Below, one piece after another: positions 22,267-34,467 of a stretch of DNA of 64,000 nucleotides. The number at the start of each line of letters is the position of its first letter. The stretch's first letter is position 1. Below the pieces are notes generated by a model, which saw only the letters and a program-made list of their open reading frames with translations, was not told where the DNA came from and made no database searches. The stretch is from Candidatus Baltobacteraceae bacterium (GTDB lineage: Bacteria > Vulcanimicrobiota > Vulcanimicrobiia > Vulcanimicrobiales > Vulcanimicrobiaceae). The stretch covers positions 930,001 through 994,000 of the forward strand of contig DASXEW010000001.1 in the NCBI GenBank assembly GCA_036489885.1, read 5' to 3'. The translations under genes and the position numbers were made by a program.

Positions 22267-22341
22267 TGGAGCGGAAGACGAGACTTGAACTCGCGACCCT
22301 CGCCTTGGCAAGGCGATGCTCTACCACTGAGCTACTTCCGC
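22267..22341 (-). tRNA. tRNA-Gly (anticodon GCC)
   Basis: The minus strand gives a full cloverleaf: acceptor GCGGAAG/CTTCCGC, D-arm GTAGCTCAGTGGTAGAGC, anticodon stem CGCCT/AGGCG around TTGCCAA (anticodon GCC), and T-arm with GTTCAAGTC. The 3' CCA is encoded. Confidence 0.97.
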
Positions 22342-22366
22342 AATGAACTGGTTATCGGTTCGAAAC

Positions 22367-22448
<82 letters not shown>

Positions 22449-22571
22449 GCACGGACCCGCGACGGACGTTCGCGAGTATACGGAACCTATCCGGCGAGCG
22501 TCAAGGCCGAGGCGCCAAAGGCCCGGCAAAGAGAGCGGCCGCTCTCCTGCGGAAAGCGGCCATCCCGGACT

Positions 22572-22646
<75 letters not shown>

Positions 22647-22701
22647 GCGCTCGCCACTTTCACCGCGCGGAACTGCACTCCCCGCGTCGAACCGCGCGCG
22701 A

Positions 22702-23430
22702 ATGCACATGGTTGCCAAACCGTCGATCGTCATTTTACACGGCGCCAACGGCACCGCGACGATCATGCGCCCACTCGCGAACGAGCTACGCACGTGTGCC
22801 GATCCGATTTCGTTGAACATGCTCGGCCACGGCGGGCGCGAGGTTCCCGAGAGTGTGAGCTTCGCTTCGTTCGCTGCCGACGTGATCGCGCAAATGGATG
22901 CGCGGGGCGTGGAGCGTGCGTACATCTTTGGCTTCAGCTCGGGCGGAACCACCGCGCTCTATCTCACGCGGCACTACCCCGAGCGTTTCATCGGTGTCGC
23001 GACGCTCGCGGCGAAATATCTATTTGACGCGCGTACGATCGAGCATTGGACATATTTGTGCGACCCGGAGCGGCTCGCGCGTCCCGGAAACACGCGCGCC
23101 GAGGAATTGGAGAGCGATCATCGGCCGCAGGATTGGAAAAAGGTGACGCTCTTGAACCGGCGGTTCTTCGTTGACTTGGCCGGCAACGCGCCGCTCGGCG
23201 ACGATGACCTGCGCGCTATCACCATGCCGGCGTTGATCTTCTCCTCAAATCAAGATCAGATTGTCCCGCTCGAGGAAACAGTCGCGCTTGCCAAGCTGAT
23301 GCCGAACGCAAAACCGGTCGTCTTCCACGGGCAATGTCATCCGTTTCACGTCGTTCCGATCCCGGCGATTGTAAAAGCAATCTGCAATTGGATCGGAGAG
23401 ACGGAAAAAGCGAACGCGGCGTCTGGTTAA
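22702..23430 (+). CDS. Alpha/beta-hydrolase
   Basis: 242 residues on the opposite strand from the tRNA genes around it. The alpha/beta-hydrolase fold shows the oxyanion strand VILHGANG, the nucleophile elbow GFSSGG, a late acid region (SSNQDQIVP, Asp) and a C-terminal His (GQCHPFHV). No signal peptide. Substrate unknown; esterase or lactonase activity is likely. A second in-frame ATG lies two codons after the first. A strong terminator hairpin spans its stop codon. Confidence 0.85.
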   Translation: MHMVAKPSIVILHGANGTATIMRPLANELRTCADPISLNMLGHGGREVPESVSFASFAADVIAQMDARGVERAYIFGFSSGGTTALYLTRHYPERFIGVATLAAKYLFDARTIEHWTYLCDPERLARPGNTRAEELESDHRPQDWKKVTLLNRRFFVDLAGNAPLGDDDLRAITMPALIFSSNQDQIVPLEETVALAKLMPNAKPVVFHGQCHPFHVVPIPAIVKAICNWIGETEKANAASG

Positions 23431-23447
23431 GACGCCGCGGACTTTTA
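23415..23447 (+). terminator. Rho-independent terminator of the hydrolase gene
   Basis: CGCGGCGTC-TGGTTAA-GACGCCGCG forms a perfect 9-bp stem with a 7-base loop containing the stop codon TAA, followed by GACTTTTA. It would stop plus-strand transcription just before the convergent tRNA-Lys gene. Confidence 0.8.
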
Positions 23448-23519
23448 TGCGCCCTGCAAGATTCGAACTTGCGGCCAATTGGTTAAAAGCCAACTGCTCT
23501 ACCACTGAGCTAAGGGCGC
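23448..23519 (-). tRNA. tRNA-Lys (anticodon TTT)
   Basis: Acceptor GCGCCCT/AGGGCGC, anticodon stem TTGGC around TTTTAAC with anticodon TTT, T-loop GTTCGAATC. No encoded CCA. The stop codon of the upstream HNH gene lies inside its 5' part. Confidence 0.96.
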
Positions 23520-24038
23520 GAGCACCAAGCAACTATACTCGGGCCCGAGGTCGAGTGCAACGGCATTCGGCCCTCGCCTTCCCGTCTTAGCCACGCGGAC
23601 GGCTCTTCGCTGCTTACTAAGCCAATTTAGCTGCTTTGCTGTCCTCCTCCGGTGACAATTCGCGCAGCGAACCTCGCACTTTGCAATCTCGGCCATGAGA
23701 GTCTCAACGGAGGCTCCGGCATTCGCCATGACTCCAACCGCCGCACGTTTGTCGCCCCGCACATGATCGAATTCTAAGACGAGGATGTCGTCCTCCTTGC
23801 AGTCGACGCACGGGTGTTCTAATAGATAATCTACAATTAGCATCCTATTGCGGTCTTGATATTCCGTCTTGAAAGGTTGCCATTTTTGCCCTAGGACTTT
23901 CGTTCTAAAATGATATCGCTTCTTATAGTGCGCGTGCTGACAAGGTTTGCAATAAGATCCATACCCTATCGATTTTGCGCGATTGCGATAGAATTGGTCA
24001 AAAGGCTTTAACACGTGGCACTTTCCGCATTGCTTCAT
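23499..24038 (-). CDS. HNH endonuclease with N-terminal zinc ribbon
   Basis: About 179 residues from ATG at 24038 (MKQCGKCHVLKPFDQFYRN). A two-CxxC zinc ribbon (CGKC...CKPC) is followed by an HNH-type nuclease core: HPCVDCKEDD, LEFDHVRGDK and CEVRCANCHRRRT, the order CxxC-xDH-CxxCH found in many free-standing HNH endonucleases. Base composition is visibly more AT-rich than the neighbours, suggesting transfer. The frame runs into tRNA-Lys(TTT): its last seven codons (APLAQW, stop) are the first bases of the tRNA. A damaged relative lies at 25514-25947, also next to a tRNA gene. A GTG at 24059 could be an earlier start. Confidence 0.82.
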   Translation of the reverse strand: MKQCGKCHVLKPFDQFYRNRAKSIGYGSYCKPCQHAHYKKRYHFRTKVLGQKWQPFKTEYQDRNRMLIVDYLLEHPCVDCKEDDILVLEFDHVRGDKRAAVGVMANAGASVETLMAEIAKCEVRCANCHRRRTAKQLNWLSKQRRAVRVAKTGRRGPNAVALDLGPEYSCLVLAPLAQW

Positions 24039-24118
24039 GTGTGAAGCATAAACAAACACGGTGCCAACAGCATGGCATCATGTTTGCAATCTCTGCATAG
24101 TTGACGAAGTTGTCGAGA

Positions 24119-25100
24119 CTATGACTCTTTCGTAAAGTCGGGTGGAACTCCGAAGATCGATTTATCCGTGTCGCTCACCGGATGAACGTTGCCGCGCTCG
24201 ATGATCGTTGCGAAGGCGCGACCTTGGCTGTTCCGGCCTTGGAATTGGTAGACGGAGAACATATCGAGCCGACCGCTCGGCAATGGTGGGCCGCTCGACG
24301 TCATTGTGAACCGCTGATCACCGCTGGGCGTACGCATCGCTTCGTTGATCATGTGCGTCATGTTGGCGTTCGATGCCATTGCGGCCATCGGTCCGCCCAT
24401 CCCGGGCATTCCCGACATCGCCATCCGGCCGGCCGGACACGACTGCGACGGTTGTCCGTAAGACGAGACGTACTGAGTGAGGTTCGTCTGCATCGTTTGC
24501 GACGAGCCGTCTGATTTCGTTATTGTGATCGTCATTGCGGCTTTGTAGCCGTCGGTGTTGACGCCGTCGATCGGTTTCTGTCCGAGCGCTTGCGACGTGT
24601 ACGCGATCTTAAAGCGCGTTCCGTCGTCTTGCATGGGTGAACCGGAGCCTTCCGGTCTGCCGCCTGAATGCGTCGCCGTCTGCGGCTGGTCCATCGAGAC
24701 GACGCGATACGTCTTCTTCGCGAGATCCAGATACATGATCGTCCGCGCGCTACAGTCGACGATCGTTGCAGTTTGTGCCGCGAGATTGTCGGTACGCGAG
24801 AGATTGCCGGCGACAAAGTGTCGTTCCGCCATGCCGGTTTTCATCGACTGCGCCATCGTCATCGCGGAATTGATCTGTGCCGACATCCCACCGAACATTC
24901 CGCCGTGCTGCTGCTGCGGTGCAGGTTGCGATGCAGTTTGCCAGTCTTGCGCAAAACTCGGCTCCGGCACGGTTCCGTCCATCGAAAACTTCGTGACTTG
25001 ATCCCACGCAAGACCGCTTGCGGCGGCGCTCGGTTCGGTTGTTACCGTGAATCCGAAACAAAGTGCGAACAACGCGACAAGAGCAACTGAACGACGCATA
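24119..25100 (-). CDS. Secreted protein of unknown function, Met/Gly-rich
   Basis: 326 residues from ATG at 25100, which has AGGAG at good spacing. A clear signal peptide (RRSVALVALFALCFGFTVTT, then cleavage near SAAA) leads into a soluble exported protein. The middle has a beta-rich stretch (TIMYLDLAKKTYRVVSMDQ) resembling DUF4412-like periplasmic proteins, then a Met/Gly-rich part (MAMSGMPGMGGPMAAMAS) and a second beta region. Two Cys residues are present. Not firmly recognised. It stands alone between the HNH gene and tRNA-His. Confidence 0.8.
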
Positions 25101-25180
25101 CGCCTCTCCTTACGAGGCGCGGCCCTTACGGCCGCGCTCGCCGCCTTCCTGGCGACCGGGCGCACAGCATCGGAAGAAAT

Positions 25181-25258
25181 TGGGGTGGCTGACCGGATTT
25201 GAACCGGCGGCCTCCTAAGTCACAGTCAGGCGCTCTAACCAGCTGAGCTACAACCACC
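25181..25258 (-). tRNA. tRNA-His (anticodon GTG)
   Basis: Acceptor GTGGTTG/CAGCCAC, anticodon loop CTGTGAC (GTG), T-loop GTTCAAATC. The extra 5' G at position -1 needed for His identity is encoded at 25258 opposite a C discriminator, and CCA is encoded. Confidence 0.96.
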
Positions 25259-25319
25259 ACAAGTGTGCGCGACCCGGACGGCCCTTTTTCGAGTTGCGCG
25301 AATATGACCCTTGAGAGAT

Positions 25320-25395
25320 TGGCGCGCCCGGAGGGAATCGAACCCCCATCTCTCAGCTTAGAAGGCTGATGCCTTATCCGTTAGACCACGGGCGC
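25320..25395 (-). tRNA. tRNA-Arg (anticodon TCT)
   Basis: Acceptor GCGCCCG/CGGGCGC, D-arm TGGTCTAACGGATAAGGC, anticodon stem CAGCC with loop TTCTAAG (TCT), T-loop GTTCGATTC, encoded CCA. Confidence 0.96.
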
Positions 25396-25404
25396 ACGGA
25401 TAAA

Positions 25405-25481
25405 TGGTCGGGACGACAGGAATTAAACCTGCGACCTCTCGGACCCAAACCGAGCGCTCTATCAAGCTGAGCTACGTCCCG
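25405..25481 (-). tRNA. tRNA-Pro (anticodon TGG)
   Basis: Acceptor CGGGACG/CGTCCCG, anticodon stem CTCGG with loop TTTGGGT (TGG), T-arm with GTTTAATTC, encoded CCA. It lies 9 bp downstream of the point where tRNA-Arg ends its 5' side, in the same direction. Confidence 0.95.
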
Positions 25482-26663: not shown

Positions 26664-27902
26664 GTGCGCTTCTTCGACGTCGTCGTCGTCGGTGCTGGCC
26701 CGGCGGGACTCCTTGCCGGTCTTCTTCTGACGCGCAGCCGCGCGCACGTCGCGATCTTCGAATCCGGTCCGTCGTTTGAACGCGCCTATCGCGGCGAAAC
26801 GCTCACGCCGGGCACGCAACAGATTTTCGAAGATATCGGGCTGCGCGAGCGCGTTTGGGATCTCGGTGGCGGCGATCCGGCCGGCATTTCGCTCATCCTG
26901 CGCGGACGCGTGTACGACATCGATCTCATCGGTGAAGGCGGTAAACGCATACGGCAAGTTCCGCAAGCCGCACTTCTCGGTCTTCTCGCCGAGGAAGCGC
27001 GCAACGCCGGTGCGCTCGTCGAGCTCAGCTCGCGCGTGCGCGGCGTCGTCATGGACAGGAACCGCGTTGCGGGCATCACGATCCTCCACGAAGGGCGCGA
27101 AGAACAAATTGGTGCGCGGATCGTCATCGCGGCCGACGGCCGGTTCTCGATCGCACGAAAAGATGCGGGTATCGCGCTGCGCAGTACAAGCGTCCCATTT
27201 GATTTGCTCTGGGCCTCGGGGCGCGGCGAAGGCCGTCGCGTACAAGTCGTCGTCGAAGGTGGCGAAGTCTTCGTCGCTTTTCCTACGACCGCGCACGGCG
27301 CGCAAATCGGGTGGCTCATACCGAAGGGATCCTATGCGGAGATGCGTGCCCGTGGAATCGACAGGCTGCGCGAGCGTTTCACGCGCGCCCTTGCCCTAGC
27401 CCCACAACAAATAGAGCCGAAGATCGAGGGCTTCAACGATCTCGCTCTGTTGCCGATCGTCTCGCAAATCGCGCGGCGCTGGACCGTGCCGGGTCTGCTT
27501 CTGATCGGAGACGCCGCTCATCCGATGTCGCCGGTTGGCGGTCAGGGCATCAACATCGCGATTGCCGATGCGGTCGTCGCGGCGCGCACGATTGCAACCA
27601 TCGTTCGTGAAGGCGATGGCGACAAGCGTCTCGACGACGCGCTGCGTAGTGTCGAGCGCGAGCGGATGCCGGCCGTCGAGCGCGTCGCACGGCAACAAAA
27701 TCTGCTCCCGCAGCTCCTGCGTTTGTTCGGGGCCGAACGCAGTCTCGGGATCCTCGCGCCATACGCGCAGCGGATTTCGAAGAACAGAACGATCCCCGCG
27801 CCGATCCGAGCCATGGTCGAACGCTTCATGCTGGGAGATCCTCCGGTTCGCGCCAATCATGGTCCTTGGATGACGACACCCGTCCCAACCAAGTTTCTAT
27901 GA
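26664..27902 (+). CDS. FAD-dependent monooxygenase (PHBH-type)
   Basis: About 412 residues. GTG at 26664 (VRFFDVVVVGAGPAGLLAG) is chosen because the Rossmann GxGxxG begins right after it; the longer frame overlaps rdgB antisense. The second FAD motif is GDAAHPMSPVGGQGINIAI, and a DG motif appears as VIAADGRFS. This set is typical of group A flavoprotein hydroxylases and also of geranylgeranyl reductase-like enzymes. Substrate unknown. The stop overlaps the start of the DUF1345 gene by 4 bp. Confidence 0.9.
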   Translation: MRFFDVVVVGAGPAGLLAGLLLTRSRAHVAIFESGPSFERAYRGETLTPGTQQIFEDIGLRERVWDLGGGDPAGISLILRGRVYDIDLIGEGGKRIRQVPQAALLGLLAEEARNAGALVELSSRVRGVVMDRNRVAGITILHEGREEQIGARIVIAADGRFSIARKDAGIALRSTSVPFDLLWASGRGEGRRVQVVVEGGEVFVAFPTTAHGAQIGWLIPKGSYAEMRARGIDRLRERFTRALALAPQQIEPKIEGFNDLALLPIVSQIARRWTVPGLLLIGDAAHPMSPVGGQGINIAIADAVVAARTIATIVREGDGDKRLDDALRSVERERMPAVERVARQQNLLPQLLRLFGAERSLGILAPYAQRISKNRTIPAPIRAMVERFMLGDPPVRANHGPWMTTPVPTKFL

Positions 27903-28567
27903 ACGAGACCATCCGCATTTGGACGCCCTGGCACGCTCGCGGCGTCGTTCTTGCGATGGCGCTCATCGCCGGCGTCTGCACGAGCACTTTTGCGCCTGGC
28001 TGGATTCATGGAGCCGTGCGCGCGGTCCTCACGTACGACATTGCTGCGCTTGCGATCCTGATCGGCTATTTCATCTTTGCCTTTCGCGACGATCAGAACC
28101 GCACTCGACTTCGCGCTGCGCAGAACGATCCGGGGCGCAACATCGTCTTATCCATTACCGTCCTAAGCGCCGCGGCCGGTCTTGCCGGCGCGATCTCGAT
28201 CCTCGGTAAGGGACCTAGCGTTCGGACGGCGGCTGAACTCGGATTCGCAATCGGCGTCGCGATCGGCGGTGCTGTTATCGGGTGGAGCCTGACGCACGCG
28301 ACGTACGCGCTACGCTACGCGCATCTGTTTTATCGCGACGACGGGACGCCGTGCGACGGACTCACCTTTCCGGAAACGCCGGAACCCGACGACTATGACT
28401 TCCTCTACTTTTCGTTCGTCATTGGGATGACGTTCCAGGTCTCGGACGTTCAAGTCAACGATCCAGGAATTCGCCGGATGGTCCTCGCGCACGGCATCGT
28501 TTCATTCGCCTACAATACGGCGATTTTGGCGCTCGGGATCAACCTGATCTCAAACCTACTGCACTAA
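27899..28567 (+). CDS. DUF1345 family membrane protein
   Basis: 222 residues with five or six hydrophobic segments (for example [20 protein letters not shown] and [20 protein letters not shown]). The core [20 protein letters not shown] and the end [14 protein letters not shown] are hallmarks of DUF1345 proteins, whose role is unknown. ATG at 27899 overlaps the monooxygenase stop (ATGA). The 3' end overlaps the convergent NIPSNAP gene by 12 bp. Confidence 0.88.
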
Positions 28568-28876
28568 GTCTTTCTCCACGCGTCGCAAGAACGTTCGTTC
28601 CTCGGCCAAAATAAGCTGTTCGCTCTCGGCAAAGCGGAAATTCTTCATGCCTTCATCGTCACCGCGTAAGCGCGCACGATACGCTTCATAATCCGCTAAG
28701 TTGTCGAACGAGATCAAACCGAACGCGATATTGTTGGTGCCTTCGTGCGGCATCCAGTAACCGTCAACACGACCGCCGCATTTTGGGATGATCGTCAACC
28801 AGTTGCGCGCGTACTCTTCGAATTTGTCGCGCTTGAACGGGTCGACTTGATACCGAATGAAAACCGTGATTGCCAC
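28556..28876 (-). CDS. NIPSNAP family protein
   Basis: 106 residues, a single dimeric alpha/beta-barrel (ferredoxin-like) domain: start [39 protein letters not shown] in the middle, and a helix [22 protein letters not shown] proteins are small and poorly understood; some degrade reactive small molecules. It lies directly downstream of the ArsR regulator (1 bp gap), so the two probably form an operon. Confidence 0.88.
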
Positions 28877-28877
28877 G

Positions 28878-29579
28878 CTAGTCCTCCGAGCTGGGAGAAA
28901 GATCGATATCGAACAGCTCTTTGAGCGCGCTCGCGCCGCGAGGCGTCACGGTCAGCGCACGGCTGTTGCGCTTGCGCTCGACCCATCCTCGCTCGAGCGC
29001 TGCGTCACCAAGTGCAGAACCGGCTAAGCCCGCTACGTGCGGGCGCCGCTCGCTCCAATCCAAGCAAGGACGGCAGACAACGCGCCGCCCACGCCCTTCG
29101 GCCAGCTTGATTTCCAGCCGGCGGAACAATGTCGCACCGTCGTCCGTCAACGTGCCCGCAGCGTCAGAGAACACAATCGCACCGCGTGCCACAAGCACGT
29201 CCGTCAGTTGAACGCCGAGGCGGCCCGCGAGATGATCGTAGCAAAAGCGCGCTGCGGCCAAGTCGCGCGCTACACGGCGCTCCGATGGATGGCGCGGCGC
29301 GCGCGCGGGCGCAAGTGCCATCAATGACTCGAGCGCGTTCGCGATGTATGGCGACGCGATGCGATAATAGCGGCTGCGCCCTTGCGCAAGCACGGTGAGG
29401 AGATGCCCGCTCACGAGTCTCTGCAAATGTGAACTCGCCGTTGAGGCGCTGACGTGCGCGAAATACGCGAGCTCGCGTCCCGTCCAAGCGCGGCCGTCCA
29501 TTAAGGCCTCGAGCAAAGTGGCGCGTGACGGATCGCCGACCAAGCGTCCGATCTCGTCCAACCGCGGTATGTTTTCCAC
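28878..29579 (-). CDS. ArsR-family transcriptional regulator with C-terminal extension
   Basis: 233 residues. The first 100 form a winged helix: [19 protein letters not shown], then the recognition-helix region [19 protein letters not shown] and the wing [11 protein letters not shown]. The C-terminal half includes [16 protein letters not shown], a stretch found in a known ArsR subgroup, and a late [14 protein letters not shown]. No complete CXC metal site is seen, so the inducer is unknown. It probably controls itself and the NIPSNAP gene. Confidence 0.9.
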
Positions 29580-29647
29580 ATCCGACGGCTTCGCAAGACC
29601 ACCATCACTTCCCGGGACGCTTCGATCCCGGTCGAACGGTCACGGCC

Positions 29648-30511
29648 CTAGGTGCGCGCTGCTATGCGGTCTTCCGCCAAGACCGGCTCGATCGCGCCTG
29701 CGATCTCTCCGATGGCGTCAACGACCGTTACCCCGGCGTCGCGAAGCATCCTACGCTTCTTGGAAGCTGAGACCGGTGCGGTCGCGTCTCCGCAAATGAG
29801 CGCGACGACCGGCTTGCGCAGCAATCCCGTTCCGGCGCGGCGCGCGATCTCTTCTTCATCTCCGGTTCCGCCCTGTCCGAATATTACGATCGCTTGCGTA
29901 TCCGGATCGATCTCAAAGGCTTCAAGCATCGGGACGAACATTGTCCCAATGGGCGCTTCGTCGCTGAGCGCGATCACAGTGCTTTGACCGATCTCGCACA
30001 TCGTGAGCGTCCGCGCGATCTCGCACGCGATTCCGCCACTGCGTGAAACGATACCAACCGGTCCCGCGCGGAAAATCAGCTCGGGCTGTTGTCCGCCGAT
30101 CGGACCGATCTTGGCTTTGCCGGGCGAGATAATTCCGGACGTTCCCGGTCCGAAGACGCGAATTCCGCGTGCGCGCGCGCGTTCGAGCACAAAAGCTGTA
30201 TCGTGATACGGCATGTCCGACGCGAGAATTGCGATCTGGCGGATGTCATGGCCGATGGCTTCAAGGGCGGCATCGCGCGCGAGGTTTCCGGGTGAAAAGA
30301 TCACTCCGAACGTCGCGGGCTGCTCGCGAAGAGCTCCGCGCACGCTTTCGTAGACATTGATGCCGTCGAACTGCTCTCCGCCGTGCCCGCTTGCGACAGC
30401 GGCGACGACGTTAGCGCCGTAAGCGCGCATATAGGCGACGTAGGTTCGCGCTTCGCGCGACGTCGCACCCTGTACCAGTACACGCGTTTGCGCGTCGAGA
30501 ATGATGCTCAT
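29648..30511 (-). CDS. Succinyl-CoA ligase alpha-like protein lacking the phosphohistidine
   Basis: 287 residues with the SucD layout: CoA-binding Rossmann domain (RVLVQGATSREARTYV, FGPGTSGIISPGKAKIG) and ligase domain (GPVGIVSRSGGIACEIA). The segment that carries the catalytic His in SucD (TAPxGKRMGHAGAI) is missing: the sequence goes from CGDATAPVS directly to ASKKRRMLRDAGVTVVD, about 17 residues short. The Glu of EIGG that contacts the phosphohistidine is also changed (FGQGGTGDEE). It is therefore unlikely to work as a normal succinyl-CoA synthetase. It overlaps the beta-like gene by 4 bp. Confidence 0.85.
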   Translation of the reverse strand: MSIILDAQTRVLVQGATSREARTYVAYMRAYGANVVAAVASGHGGEQFDGINVYESVRGALREQPATFGVIFSPGNLARDAALEAIGHDIRQIAILASDMPYHDTAFVLERARARGIRVFGPGTSGIISPGKAKIGPIGGQQPELIFRAGPVGIVSRSGGIACEIARTLTMCEIGQSTVIALSDEAPIGTMFVPMLEAFEIDPDTQAIVIFGQGGTGDEEEIARRAGTGLLRKPVVALICGDATAPVSASKKRRMLRDAGVTVVDAIGEIAGAIEPVLAEDRIAART

Positions 30512-31710
30512 GCTGCCTCCGAACGCGCGACGAGTCGCTCGATAGCGACCTCAAACGGCGTTTGCGCGTCGTAGAATTCGATCTCGGGTAAGCTACCCGC
30601 AATCGCCCGCGCTTCTGCAATCCGTGCGCCGTCGAAGCGCAGCATCACGGGTGTTCTGCGCGGATCGATTCCGGCGTCGACGAGCCCCTGGAGAAACGCG
30701 CCGACCTGAACGTCAACGGGCGCGAAGTCGTCGATCTCACCGCACGCCGCGATCCCGCGCAGACCGGGACGCGCAGCGACCGCAGCCGTAGCCTCGCGCA
30801 CTTTGTTCAACAATTGATCGCGGCCAACGTCCAGAACCGCGGCCGGCCTCTTGTTCTTTCGGTGCAGCACGTCGAGCGCATAGTTACGGGCACCGGCGCC
30901 GCTCACGATGAGGGCGACGTCACCATCGTGTTCGACGAACCAAAGCGGCGGCCCACCGTGCCGGCGGTCGATCGCAATCATCTCACGCTCGAGCGGGGTG
31001 CGTACGCGTCCGGCGTTCGTGGCTTCGGGGTCGATCAAATCGTGAAGCTTCGGATGGCGGTTGAGCGCGACCTCATCGACGACCAGCACCGCAGTCGGCA
31101 CGATGATCGAGCGCTCCGCCGTGACCATCAAGGGATTGATCTCGAGCAGCGTCGCGTCGTAGCTGACAAAGACGTCGTACATCGCGCGCAGGACGGGGAC
31201 GAACGCGTTCGATTCCGTCGCGCCGAATCCAAGATCTTCGGCAATCTCACGCGCTAGGTATTCGGGCATCCCGACTGCGCGTTCGAGCTTGCGCCGAATG
31301 AGCGCGCCGGGATCGCGTTCGCGCACTTCGGACAAATCGATTCCGCCCAGCGGCGATGCGACCAGCGACGGCATCCCGTCGGACTCGTCGGCTTCAAATG
31401 CAACGAAAACTTCCCACTCGGCTTCGATCAAGCGCACGACCATCAAGCGGTCCACGCGGAACCGCAGGACGTCTTTGCCCAGAAGGTCCGCTGCGATCGT
31501 CTGCGCCTCGCTTACCGAGCGGGCAACGCGGACCGCGCCGGCCCGGCCGCGGCCGCCGGTTGGGATCAGCGCTTTGATGACGGCCGTTCCCCCGAAACGG
31601 GTCGTGGCCGCAGCCGCCTCTTCCGGACTGAGGACCACGGCGAAGTCTGGGACCGTCACGCCGTGTTCGGAAAGTATGCGCAGGGCGTCGTGCTCGAGGA
31701 GTCTGGCCAT
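30508..31710 (-). CDS. Succinyl-CoA ligase beta-like protein (divergent ATP-grasp)
   Basis: 400 residues. An ATP-grasp N-terminal part is clear (VIKALIPTGGRGRAGAVRVA; metal-site region LLEINPLMVT) and the ligase C-terminal part follows. However, conserved SucC motifs are altered: DGNIGC is DGDVAL, LDVGGGA is LDVGRDQ, and NIFGGI is replaced by AACGEID. These changes match the loss of the phosphohistidine in the partner alpha-like subunit. It starts 4 bp past lepA's stop side and is likely transcribed with the alpha-like gene. Substrate unknown. Confidence 0.85.
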   Translation of the reverse strand: MARLLEHDALRILSEHGVTVPDFAVVLSPEEAAAATTRFGGTAVIKALIPTGGRGRAGAVRVARSVSEAQTIAADLLGKDVLRFRVDRLMVVRLIEAEWEVFVAFEADESDGMPSLVASPLGGIDLSEVRERDPGALIRRKLERAVGMPEYLAREIAEDLGFGATESNAFVPVLRAMYDVFVSYDATLLEINPLMVTAERSIIVPTAVLVVDEVALNRHPKLHDLIDPEATNAGRVRTPLEREMIAIDRRHGGPPLWFVEHDGDVALIVSGAGARNYALDVLHRKNKRPAAVLDVGRDQLLNKVREATAAVAARPGLRGIAACGEIDDFAPVDVQVGAFLQGLVDAGIDPRRTPVMLRFDGARIAEARAIAGSLPEIEFYDAQTPFEVAIERLVARSEAA

Positions 31711-31714
31711 AACC

Positions 31715-33541
31715 CTAGGTTTCGTCCAGACGCAGTACCGCCATGAATGCTTCTTGCGGTAAATCGACCCGGCCGATGCGTTTCATCCGTTCCTTACCAG
31801 CTTTTTGCTTTTCTAGGAGCTTGCGCTTGCGAGTTATGTCGCCCCCATAGCACTTCGCGAGGACGTTCTTGCGCATGGCACTGACCGTCTCGCGGGCGAC
31901 GATCTTTCCGCCGATCGCGGCCTGAATCGGAACGTCGAACATTTGACGGGGGATGAGCTCCTTGAGACGCTCGGTAAGCGCCCGGCCGCGCGCGGCGGCT
32001 TTTTCGCGCGCCACGATCATTGAAAGCGCGTCGACAGGTTCGGCGTTGAGCAAGATCTCGAGCTTGACGAGCTCGCCTTCCTTGTAGCCGGTCACCTCAT
32101 AATCGAGTGACGCATATCCCTTCGAGCGGCTCTTGAGCTGATCGAAATAATCGACGATCACTTCGGAGAGCGGCATCTCGTAGGTGATGATCACGCGTCC
32201 GTCATGCAGATACTCCATGTTGCCCATCGCACCGCGGCGATTTTGCGAGAGCTCCATAATCGTGCCCACATACTCGGGAGGCGTGATGATGGTGGCTTTG
32301 ACGTACGGCTCCTCGACTTTATCAATGAAGTTCGGAGCCGGCAAGCGCGACGGATTATCGATGATCTCGACATTGCCGTCCGTCAGCGTCACACGATACA
32401 CAACCGATGGTGACGTCGCGATTAGGTCGAGATTGTAGTTGCGTTCGAGCCGCTCTTGCACGATCTCCATGTGCAAGAGTCCGAGAAAGCCACAACGGAA
32501 GCCGAAGCCGAGCGCAACGGAGCTTTCCGGCTCGAAAACGAGCGCGGCGTCGTTGAGCTTCAGCTTTTCGAGCGCGTCACGCAGATCGGAGACCTCGACG
32601 CCTTCATTTGGATAGAGCCCGCAGTACACCATCGGAACCGCCGGCTTGTACGCCCGCACAGGTTCCGGAGCCGGGTTGTCGGCCTCGGTGATCGTGTCGC
32701 CGACGTCGATGTCACCGAGCGTCTTGATGTTGGCGATCACGTAGCCGACGCTGCCGATCCCGAGCTCGTCGATCTTGCGCATCTCGGGTGCGAACACGCC
32801 GACCTCAACGCATTCGAAGACGTATTTATGCGCCATCGACATGAAGCGGGTGCCCGCGCGCAACGAGCCGTCGAAGACGCGTCCGTACGCGACTACCCCG
32901 CGGTACGAATCGAAGCGCGCATCGAACACGAGCGCGCGCAGATAGTCGCTGGTACCGGTGGGCGGCGGAATGCGCTTTACGATCGCTTCCAATATCTCTG
33001 AGATGCCGATGCCTTCTTTGGCGCTGCACAGAATTGCATCGGAGCGATCGATCACGAGCAAATCCTCGATCTCGCCCATGATGCGGTCCGGATCGGCGGA
33101 GGGCAAGTCGATCTTGTTGATTACCGGGATGATCGTGAGGTTCTGCTCGAGCGCCAAGTGATAGTTGGCGAGCGTTTGTGCCTCGATCCCCTGGGCCGCA
33201 TCGATGACGAGCAGCGCGCCTTCGCAGGCGCCGAGCGAGCGCGAAACTTCGGATGAGAAATCGACATGGCCCGGCGTGTCGATGAAGTTTAGTGCGTACG
33301 CATTCCCGTCGGAGGCATCGTAATTGAGGGTGACCGGGTGCGCCTTGATCGTGATCCCGCGTTCACGCTCAAGATCCATCGCATCGAGCAGCTGCTCGGA
33401 CATGTCGCGTTTCTCGACGGCGTGCGTGAATTCGAGAAGACGATCCGAAAGGGTCGTCTTCCCGTGGTCGATATGCGCGATGATGCAAAAGTTGCGGACC
33501 CGCTCCGCAACAGGCCCGCTATTTAGCCGCCGAACATGCAC
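31715..33541 (-). CDS. lepA: Elongation factor 4 (LepA)
   Basis: 608 residues, the normal length. The GTPase motifs are [14 protein letters not shown] (G1), RERGITIKA (G2), [10 protein letters not shown] (G3) and INKIDLPSA (G4). The LepA-specific C-terminal domain ends with [20 protein letters not shown]. It back-translocates or rescues stalled ribosomes under stress. The start lies 19 bp inside the yggT 3' end. Confidence 0.98.
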
Positions 33542-34354: not shown

Positions 34355-34467
34355 AGGACGAGGGCCAGGTAATCCGCGGCACACGACTTGTCCCGCTTAC
34401 CGTTGCTGCCTTCCGGCCCTGGCGGGGTTCACAGGTTTCCGTTGCGCGAAGCCCGACCCTCGTCGAG
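34355..34467 (-). ncRNA. ffs: Signal recognition particle RNA (small bacterial type)
   Basis: The minus strand contains the SRP core GGGCCGGAAGGCAGCAACGG, the conserved domain IV tetraloop/asymmetric loop. GACGAGGG near the 5' end pairs with CCCTCGTC near the 3' end to close the long hairpin. The ends are set from this pairing and are accurate to a few bases. A TATGAT hexamer just upstream (about 34480) may be the -10 box. It binds Ffh for membrane targeting. Confidence 0.92.

Follow-up and report, generated by a model that had tools for sequence, protein, structure and literature searches.

The window, i.e., the whole 64,000-nt stretch of DNA analyzed here, carries two adjoining genes on its (−) strand whose products resemble the subunits of ADP-forming succinate-CoA ligase (SucCD). 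The first (30508 to 31710) encodes a beta-like (SucC-like) subunit of 400 aa with an ATP-grasp domain and a C-terminal ligase domain (Pfam ATP-grasp_2, 1.5e-42), and the second (29648 to 30511) encodes an alpha-like (SucD-like) subunit of 287 aa with a CoA-binding and a ligase domain (Pfam CoA_binding, Succ_CoA_lig, and Ligase_CoA). The two reading frames overlap by 4 bp (ATGA), and neither contains an internal stop. NCBIfam names both chains as succinate-CoA ligase subunits, at scores of about half the cut-offs. Specifically, the alpha-like chain scored 193.6 and 194 bits with TIGR01019 and PRK05678 (cut-offs, 353.2 and 336), and the beta-like chain scored 190.2 and 197.5 bits with TIGR01016 and PRK00696 (cut-offs, 375.55 and 370). 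In comparison, the genome's canonical pair passed these models, with 402.8 and 408.2 bits for alpha and 443.3 and 445.9 bits for beta. The beta-like chain also fell below the cut-off of the malate-CoA ligase beta model PRK14046 (172 bits; cut-off, 604).

Directly upstream of the beta gene lies lepA (31715 to 33541, [−] strand), with the beta start located 4 nt past the lepA stop codon, and lepA and the pair are probably carried on one transcript; a promoter scan revealed no sigma-70-like site. Downstream of the alpha gene, on the same strand, are genes for an ArsR-type helix-turn-helix (HTH) regulator (28878 to 29579; NCBIfam HTH_metalloreg, below cut-off) and a NIPSNAP protein (28556 to 28876; Pfam, 7e-24). 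Alignment to the genome of the same genus (G001) extends up to position 27898 and resumes from 31722, so that a 3.8-kb block (27899 to 31721; DUF1345, NIPSNAP, the ArsR-type regulator, alpha, and beta) is absent from that genome, in which lepA and a FAD monooxygenase gene lie ~6 bp apart. In most relatives examined, rdgB comes immediately after lepA; since these other relatives also lack the block, a gain in the lineage of the window explains its distribution more simply. The HTH regulator has 58% relatives in G014 and G019, where no SucCD-like neighbor was found, and the HTH-NIPSNAP gene pair, which recurs in the phylum (window 28556 to 29579; L090; L068), also occurs without detected SucCD-like genes in G014 and G047; the block therefore looks composite. 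We recognized no mobile-element gene, and the codon usage and GC3 of the pair are similar to those of neighboring genes. Elsewhere in the window, seven tRNA genes cluster at 22270 to 25481 on the (−) strand, and a bacterial small SRP RNA is found at 34360 to 34458.

For a residue survey, the window alpha was aligned with 113 relatives and the window beta with 98 (His246 and Glu208 of the E. coli literature are His247 and Glu209 in our alignment). The original prediction, made from the DNA letters and their translations, was that the alpha-like subunit lacks about 17 residues including the phosphohistidine and that the Glu of its EIGG motif is replaced, and the alignments bore out both points. 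The loss comprises 15–18 residues around the phosphohistidine, the figure varying by alignment, and leaves the phosphohistidine site empty; His246, Glu208, and the GGD motif (G179-G180-D181), each conserved in ~100% of the 113 alpha relatives, are all missing from the window chain. What remains of the swinging loop, according to the model and the alignments, is alpha 241–248 (GDATAPVS; 29768 to 29791, [−] strand), i.e., 8 residues between a strand (235–240) and a helix (249–258) of the AlphaFold model. The catalytic Glu208, which is E in all aligned relatives, is replaced by Q213 (29873 to 29875, [−] strand), and the invariant GGD is replaced by S183-D184-E185 (29957 to 29965, [−] strand). Reading the alpha region by eye, we saw no displaced GHAGA in another frame. 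Further alpha changes, which the original prediction overlooked, are G18S, P41S, N123G, and K43H; the last (H43; 30383 to 30385, [−] strand) replaces the CoA-site Lys/Arg, a CoA contact in structures of succinyl-CoA synthetase (SCS). Overall, the window alpha keeps 42 of 63 columns conserved at ≥90% (67%), compared with a leave-one-out minimum of 85% among its relatives. In SCS, the phosphoryl relay consists of His246, alpha Glu208, and beta Glu197 (PMC10342173), and the related 4HB-CoA synthetase carries its His on a swinging loop of 21 residues, which crosses ~30 Å (PMC11494057). At ~8 residues, the window loop is therefore too short for carrying phosphate over ~30 Å.

The beta-like chain carries matching lesions, consistent with the coordinated loss in both partners that had been predicted. 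Both of the beta changes initially noted, LDVGGGA to LDVGRDQ and DGNIGC to DGDVAL, are present in the alignment; the former places G296-R297-D298 (30817 to 30825, [−] strand) in the GGG loop of the ligase site, a loop that is also altered (K-I-G) in the nearest relative, L191 (see below). To these we add four changes that had been missed: T206 (31093 to 31095, [−] strand) in place of Asp213 (D213T), S127 (31330 to 31332, [−] strand) in place of the invariant Glu134 (E134S), Q48L, and K215V. Asp213 is the Mg ligand in ATP-grasp enzymes; it is D in 57 of the 57 other relatives and A, S, T, or G in 12 of 13 members of the subfamily described below. The ATP-grasp residues K46, R54, E107, E197 (as E190), and N199 are retained. 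In the window beta, 28 of the 43 columns with ≥90% conservation are kept (65%; leave-one-out minimum among relatives, 76%), and because retention falls below the leave-one-out minimum in both chains, the losses exceed chance.

Despite these lesions, both chains are predicted to retain the ordinary SCS fold. The AlphaFold model of alpha (mean pLDDT, 93.6) matched SCS alpha with a Z of 39 and an rmsd of 1.2–1.3 over ~270 residues, and that of beta (mean pLDDT, 92.0) had SCS beta as its best PDB matches (Z, 38–42); these are predicted models of single chains, matched over their full length by Foldseek and VIA-align, and since their input alignments consisted of His-bearing canonical relatives, which may favor the canonical fold, they are not independent proof. 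Thus, the CoA and ATP-grasp folds seem to be intact, as originally proposed, but this does not extend to the CoA and Mg-ATP sites, judging by the replacement of the CoA-site Lys and the Mg-ligand Asp213.

We searched ~1,650 genomes in all, including 149 of the phylum, which are samples and not full sets. The same genome does contain, as had been suggested as a check, an intact canonical sucCD with the His (L002). A further pair (L003/L092; G000:C3, ~1,878 kb) is His-bearing and SucCD-like and adjoins a sulfoacetaldehyde acetyltransferase (xsc) gene, which suggests sulfonate use by the bacterium. At an E-value of 1e-40, no beta ortholog was found in the 149 genomes of the phylum. Instead, in both subunit trees the nearest relative is a Chloroflexota pair (L191 of genome G596; SH-aLRT, 96 and 99), to which the window pair shows 46% (alpha) and 35% (beta) identity; this shared nearest pair indicates that the two chains were inherited together. 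The wider grouping appears to be with a distinct SCS-like subfamily of Bacillota and Chloroflexota (support, 80 for alpha and 69 for beta). Derivation from the genome's own sucCD or from its sulfonate-linked pair was also considered, and the trees place the window pair elsewhere. Specifically, placing beta with the phylum's own SucC was rejected (AU P = 0.0001), whereas for alpha the corresponding placement was borderline (AU P = 0.054) and one with the sulfonate-linked pairs was not rejected (P = 0.215); the pair probably did not arise by duplication of the canonical sucCD in this genome. An Eremiobacterota pair (L006/L095; hyuAB cluster), which had seemed the nearest kin, was superseded by L191. 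The clustered neighbors of this SucCD-like type of pair in Eremiobacterota (L088, L095, and L097) are ABC-transporter genes and hydantoinase/oxoprolinase-like genes (hyuAB), and in its beta CDTSGNP replaces the GGG loop.

The subfamily occurs in 11 of 348 sampled Bacillota genomes (the phylum of G160), a count set by a score gap between 449 and 227 bits, and further pairs come from the Chloroflexota sample; the 13 members examined are L176, L181–L189, and L191–L193 (from G160, G212, G503, and other genomes). His, Glu208, and GGD are kept in all 13 alphas, so that no separate clade with the same deletion, as the original prediction had envisaged, appears in the trees, and no relative with the deletion was found in the ~1,650 genomes. 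By these sequence searches, the His deletion is so far known from the window genome only. Searches for closer kin in the order and class of G596 found none, and tblastn of plasmids likewise found none, the four pairs inspected all keeping the His; a first contig scan with alpha peptides gave no match, and a search of Acidobacteriota was empty at the threshold used, which says little. In L176, L181–L189, and L191–L192, the phosphohistidine is kept while beta Asp213 (12 of the 13 members) is lost, as are Q48 and K215; L193 (genome G823) appears to keep Asp213 and may be an intermediate. Several members adjoin a gene for a CitE-type lyase (HpcH_HpaI) and some adjoin MmgE/PrpD or fumarate-reductase-like genes, and the surroundings of L191 include genes for a tartrate-dehydrogenase-like protein and a tripartite tricarboxylate transporter; a fair guess is that the subfamily ancestor was a dicarboxylate- or hydroxyacid-CoA ligase. 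We found nothing useful in the literature on a CitE-linked SucCD-like ligase. The window pair shares with L191 the changes at alpha N123 and T97 and at the beta GG loop, E99, and Y109 (Y109F), and with the subfamily those at beta Asp213, Q48 (Q48L), and K215, and the erosion of both chains is therefore probably in part older than the deletion.

We next considered decay versus maintenance. If the L191 genes changed neutrally to 61% identity, the probability of remaining stop-free would be 0.112 for alpha and 0.017 for beta, i.e., ~0.2% for both. Moreover, the mean BLOSUM62 score at changed sites is −0.07 for alpha and −0.32 for beta, compared with a neutral expectation of −0.6 to −0.8. Because stop-free survival would be rare and the substitutions are conservative, most of the divergence probably arose under constraint, and the sequence pattern together with the open frames is poorly explained by neutral decay alone. 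As no ortholog with the deletion was found, these figures bear on selection for the pair as it now stands only indirectly.

Taken together, we favor, at a probability of about one half, the reading that the pair is a fold-keeping SCS-type pseudoenzyme, i.e., that the chains fold, probably pair with each other, do not act as a CoA ligase, and act by binding. The pair would descend from the little-described SCS-like ligase subfamily, was probably gained within the block behind lepA, and would be expressed from there. Its machinery for ADP-forming CoA ligation (phosphohistidine, swinging loop, Glu208, and the Asp213 Mg ligand) would have been lost, with the phosphate site altered in both chains and the CoA site altered as well, and from both sequence and models it is very unlikely that the SCS mechanism operates in the pair. 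The folded protein may instead bind a nucleotide, a carboxylate, or a CoA-type compound. The five ATP-grasp residues that remain argue against a pseudoenzyme and would suit a different reading, in which the pair performs another acyl or phosphoryl transfer without phosphohistidine. This would have a precedent by analogy in FdrA, one of the three oxamic transcarbamylase proteins (PMC11326118), whose E. coli K-12 sequence lacks the phosphohistidine loop in the corresponding stretch (KPTVALFLGYTPAVARDENVWFASSLDEAAR; read by eye). We regard such new chemistry as distinctly unlikely, given that changes affect the Mg ligand, the CoA lysine, and the phosphate-binding motifs of both chains, that no conserved clade shares the deletion, that no YlbE- or YlbF-like neighbor was seen, and that the match to the FdrA model is only 21.6 bits (cut-off, 433). 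A broader proposal, that a His-less SCS-fold heterodimer, whose two chains lost catalytic residues step by step in the L191/window lineage, now serves as a metabolite-binding regulator or in new acyl-transfer chemistry, seems to us unlikely. The original prediction had similarly preferred a new reaction or a regulatory complex to simple decay; the coordinated loss, the open frames, and the conservative substitutions agree with that preference, but the deletion is one-off, a distribution that the prediction itself took to count against it, and a conserved new reaction is thus not shown.

The pair might also be a horizontally gained ligase that lost its use and is in early decay, its frames being open because the loss was recent, and we consider this possible but doubtful. 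It is found in one genome, neither the same-genus genome nor the rest of the phylum sample has it, its terminal branch is about twice that of L191 in both trees (1.45 versus 0.71 and 1.93 versus 0.95), and the changes preferentially strike catalytic residues; with no pair-bearing close strain for comparison, function may have been lost recently, and few changes may have followed. The two intact overlapping frames and the host-like codon usage speak against decay, as do the conservative substitutions, the small chance that neutral excess divergence would have left the frames without a stop, and the part of the erosion that is older and common to L191. That the pair still works as an ADP-forming CoA ligase, the phosphate being carried by Asp242 of the shortened loop instead of His, is highly improbable: one alignment (G-D-A-T-A against G-H-A-G-A) does set an Asp at the His position, but gap placement varies among alignments, the loop is far too short for swinging, and Glu208, GGD, and beta Asp213 are lost too. 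An assembly or frameshift artefact, which the original prediction had raised, is scarcely credible, since we found no point in its support, the lesions are spread over both genes while the frames stay open, the pair lies between native genes on a 1.07-Mb contig, and L191 has part of the same changes. The pair is a real, unusual variant and, so far, a singleton. If selection maintains it, a central metabolic enzyme fold would have lost its catalytic center in both partners together, with the fold itself kept, and intermediates are at hand for stepwise comparison, namely L191 and the subfamily that has the His without Asp213. Such pairs can also receive a succinate-CoA ligase annotation, although they are probably not that enzyme.

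Among known systems, the pair shares with SucCD the two-gene beta-alpha order, the domain make-up, and the predicted fold, but differs in its missing phosphohistidine, swinging loop, Glu208, GGD, and Asp213 and in its low NCBIfam scores. With the Bacillota/Chloroflexota subfamily it shares Q48L, the loss of Asp213 (12 of 13 members), GT for GG after Glu208, and an SRSGG motif, whereas those members keep His, Glu208, and GGD, and several have a CitE-type neighbor; no such or similar gene was recognized beside the window pair. Malate-CoA ligase MtkAB, citryl-CoA synthetase, and ATP-citrate lyase have the same fold and are more distant sequence matches with low scores; all three use a phosphohistidine. 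FdrA/AllF, a component of the three-protein oxamic transcarbamylase (PMC11326118), is likewise an SCS-like protein without a phosphohistidine loop, but it is a single 555-aa chain with no ATP-grasp match and has YlbE and YlbF as partners. Membership of the window alpha in this family was rejected (NF004760, with the score given above), and no DUF1116 or DUF2877 gene was recognized around the pair, where the window ORFs were inspected by eye and the nearest genes by Pfam. The E. coli K-12 fdrA gene (L215, 3681 to 5348) itself is named acyl-CoA synthetase by NCBIfam, yet its product has no phosphohistidine loop.
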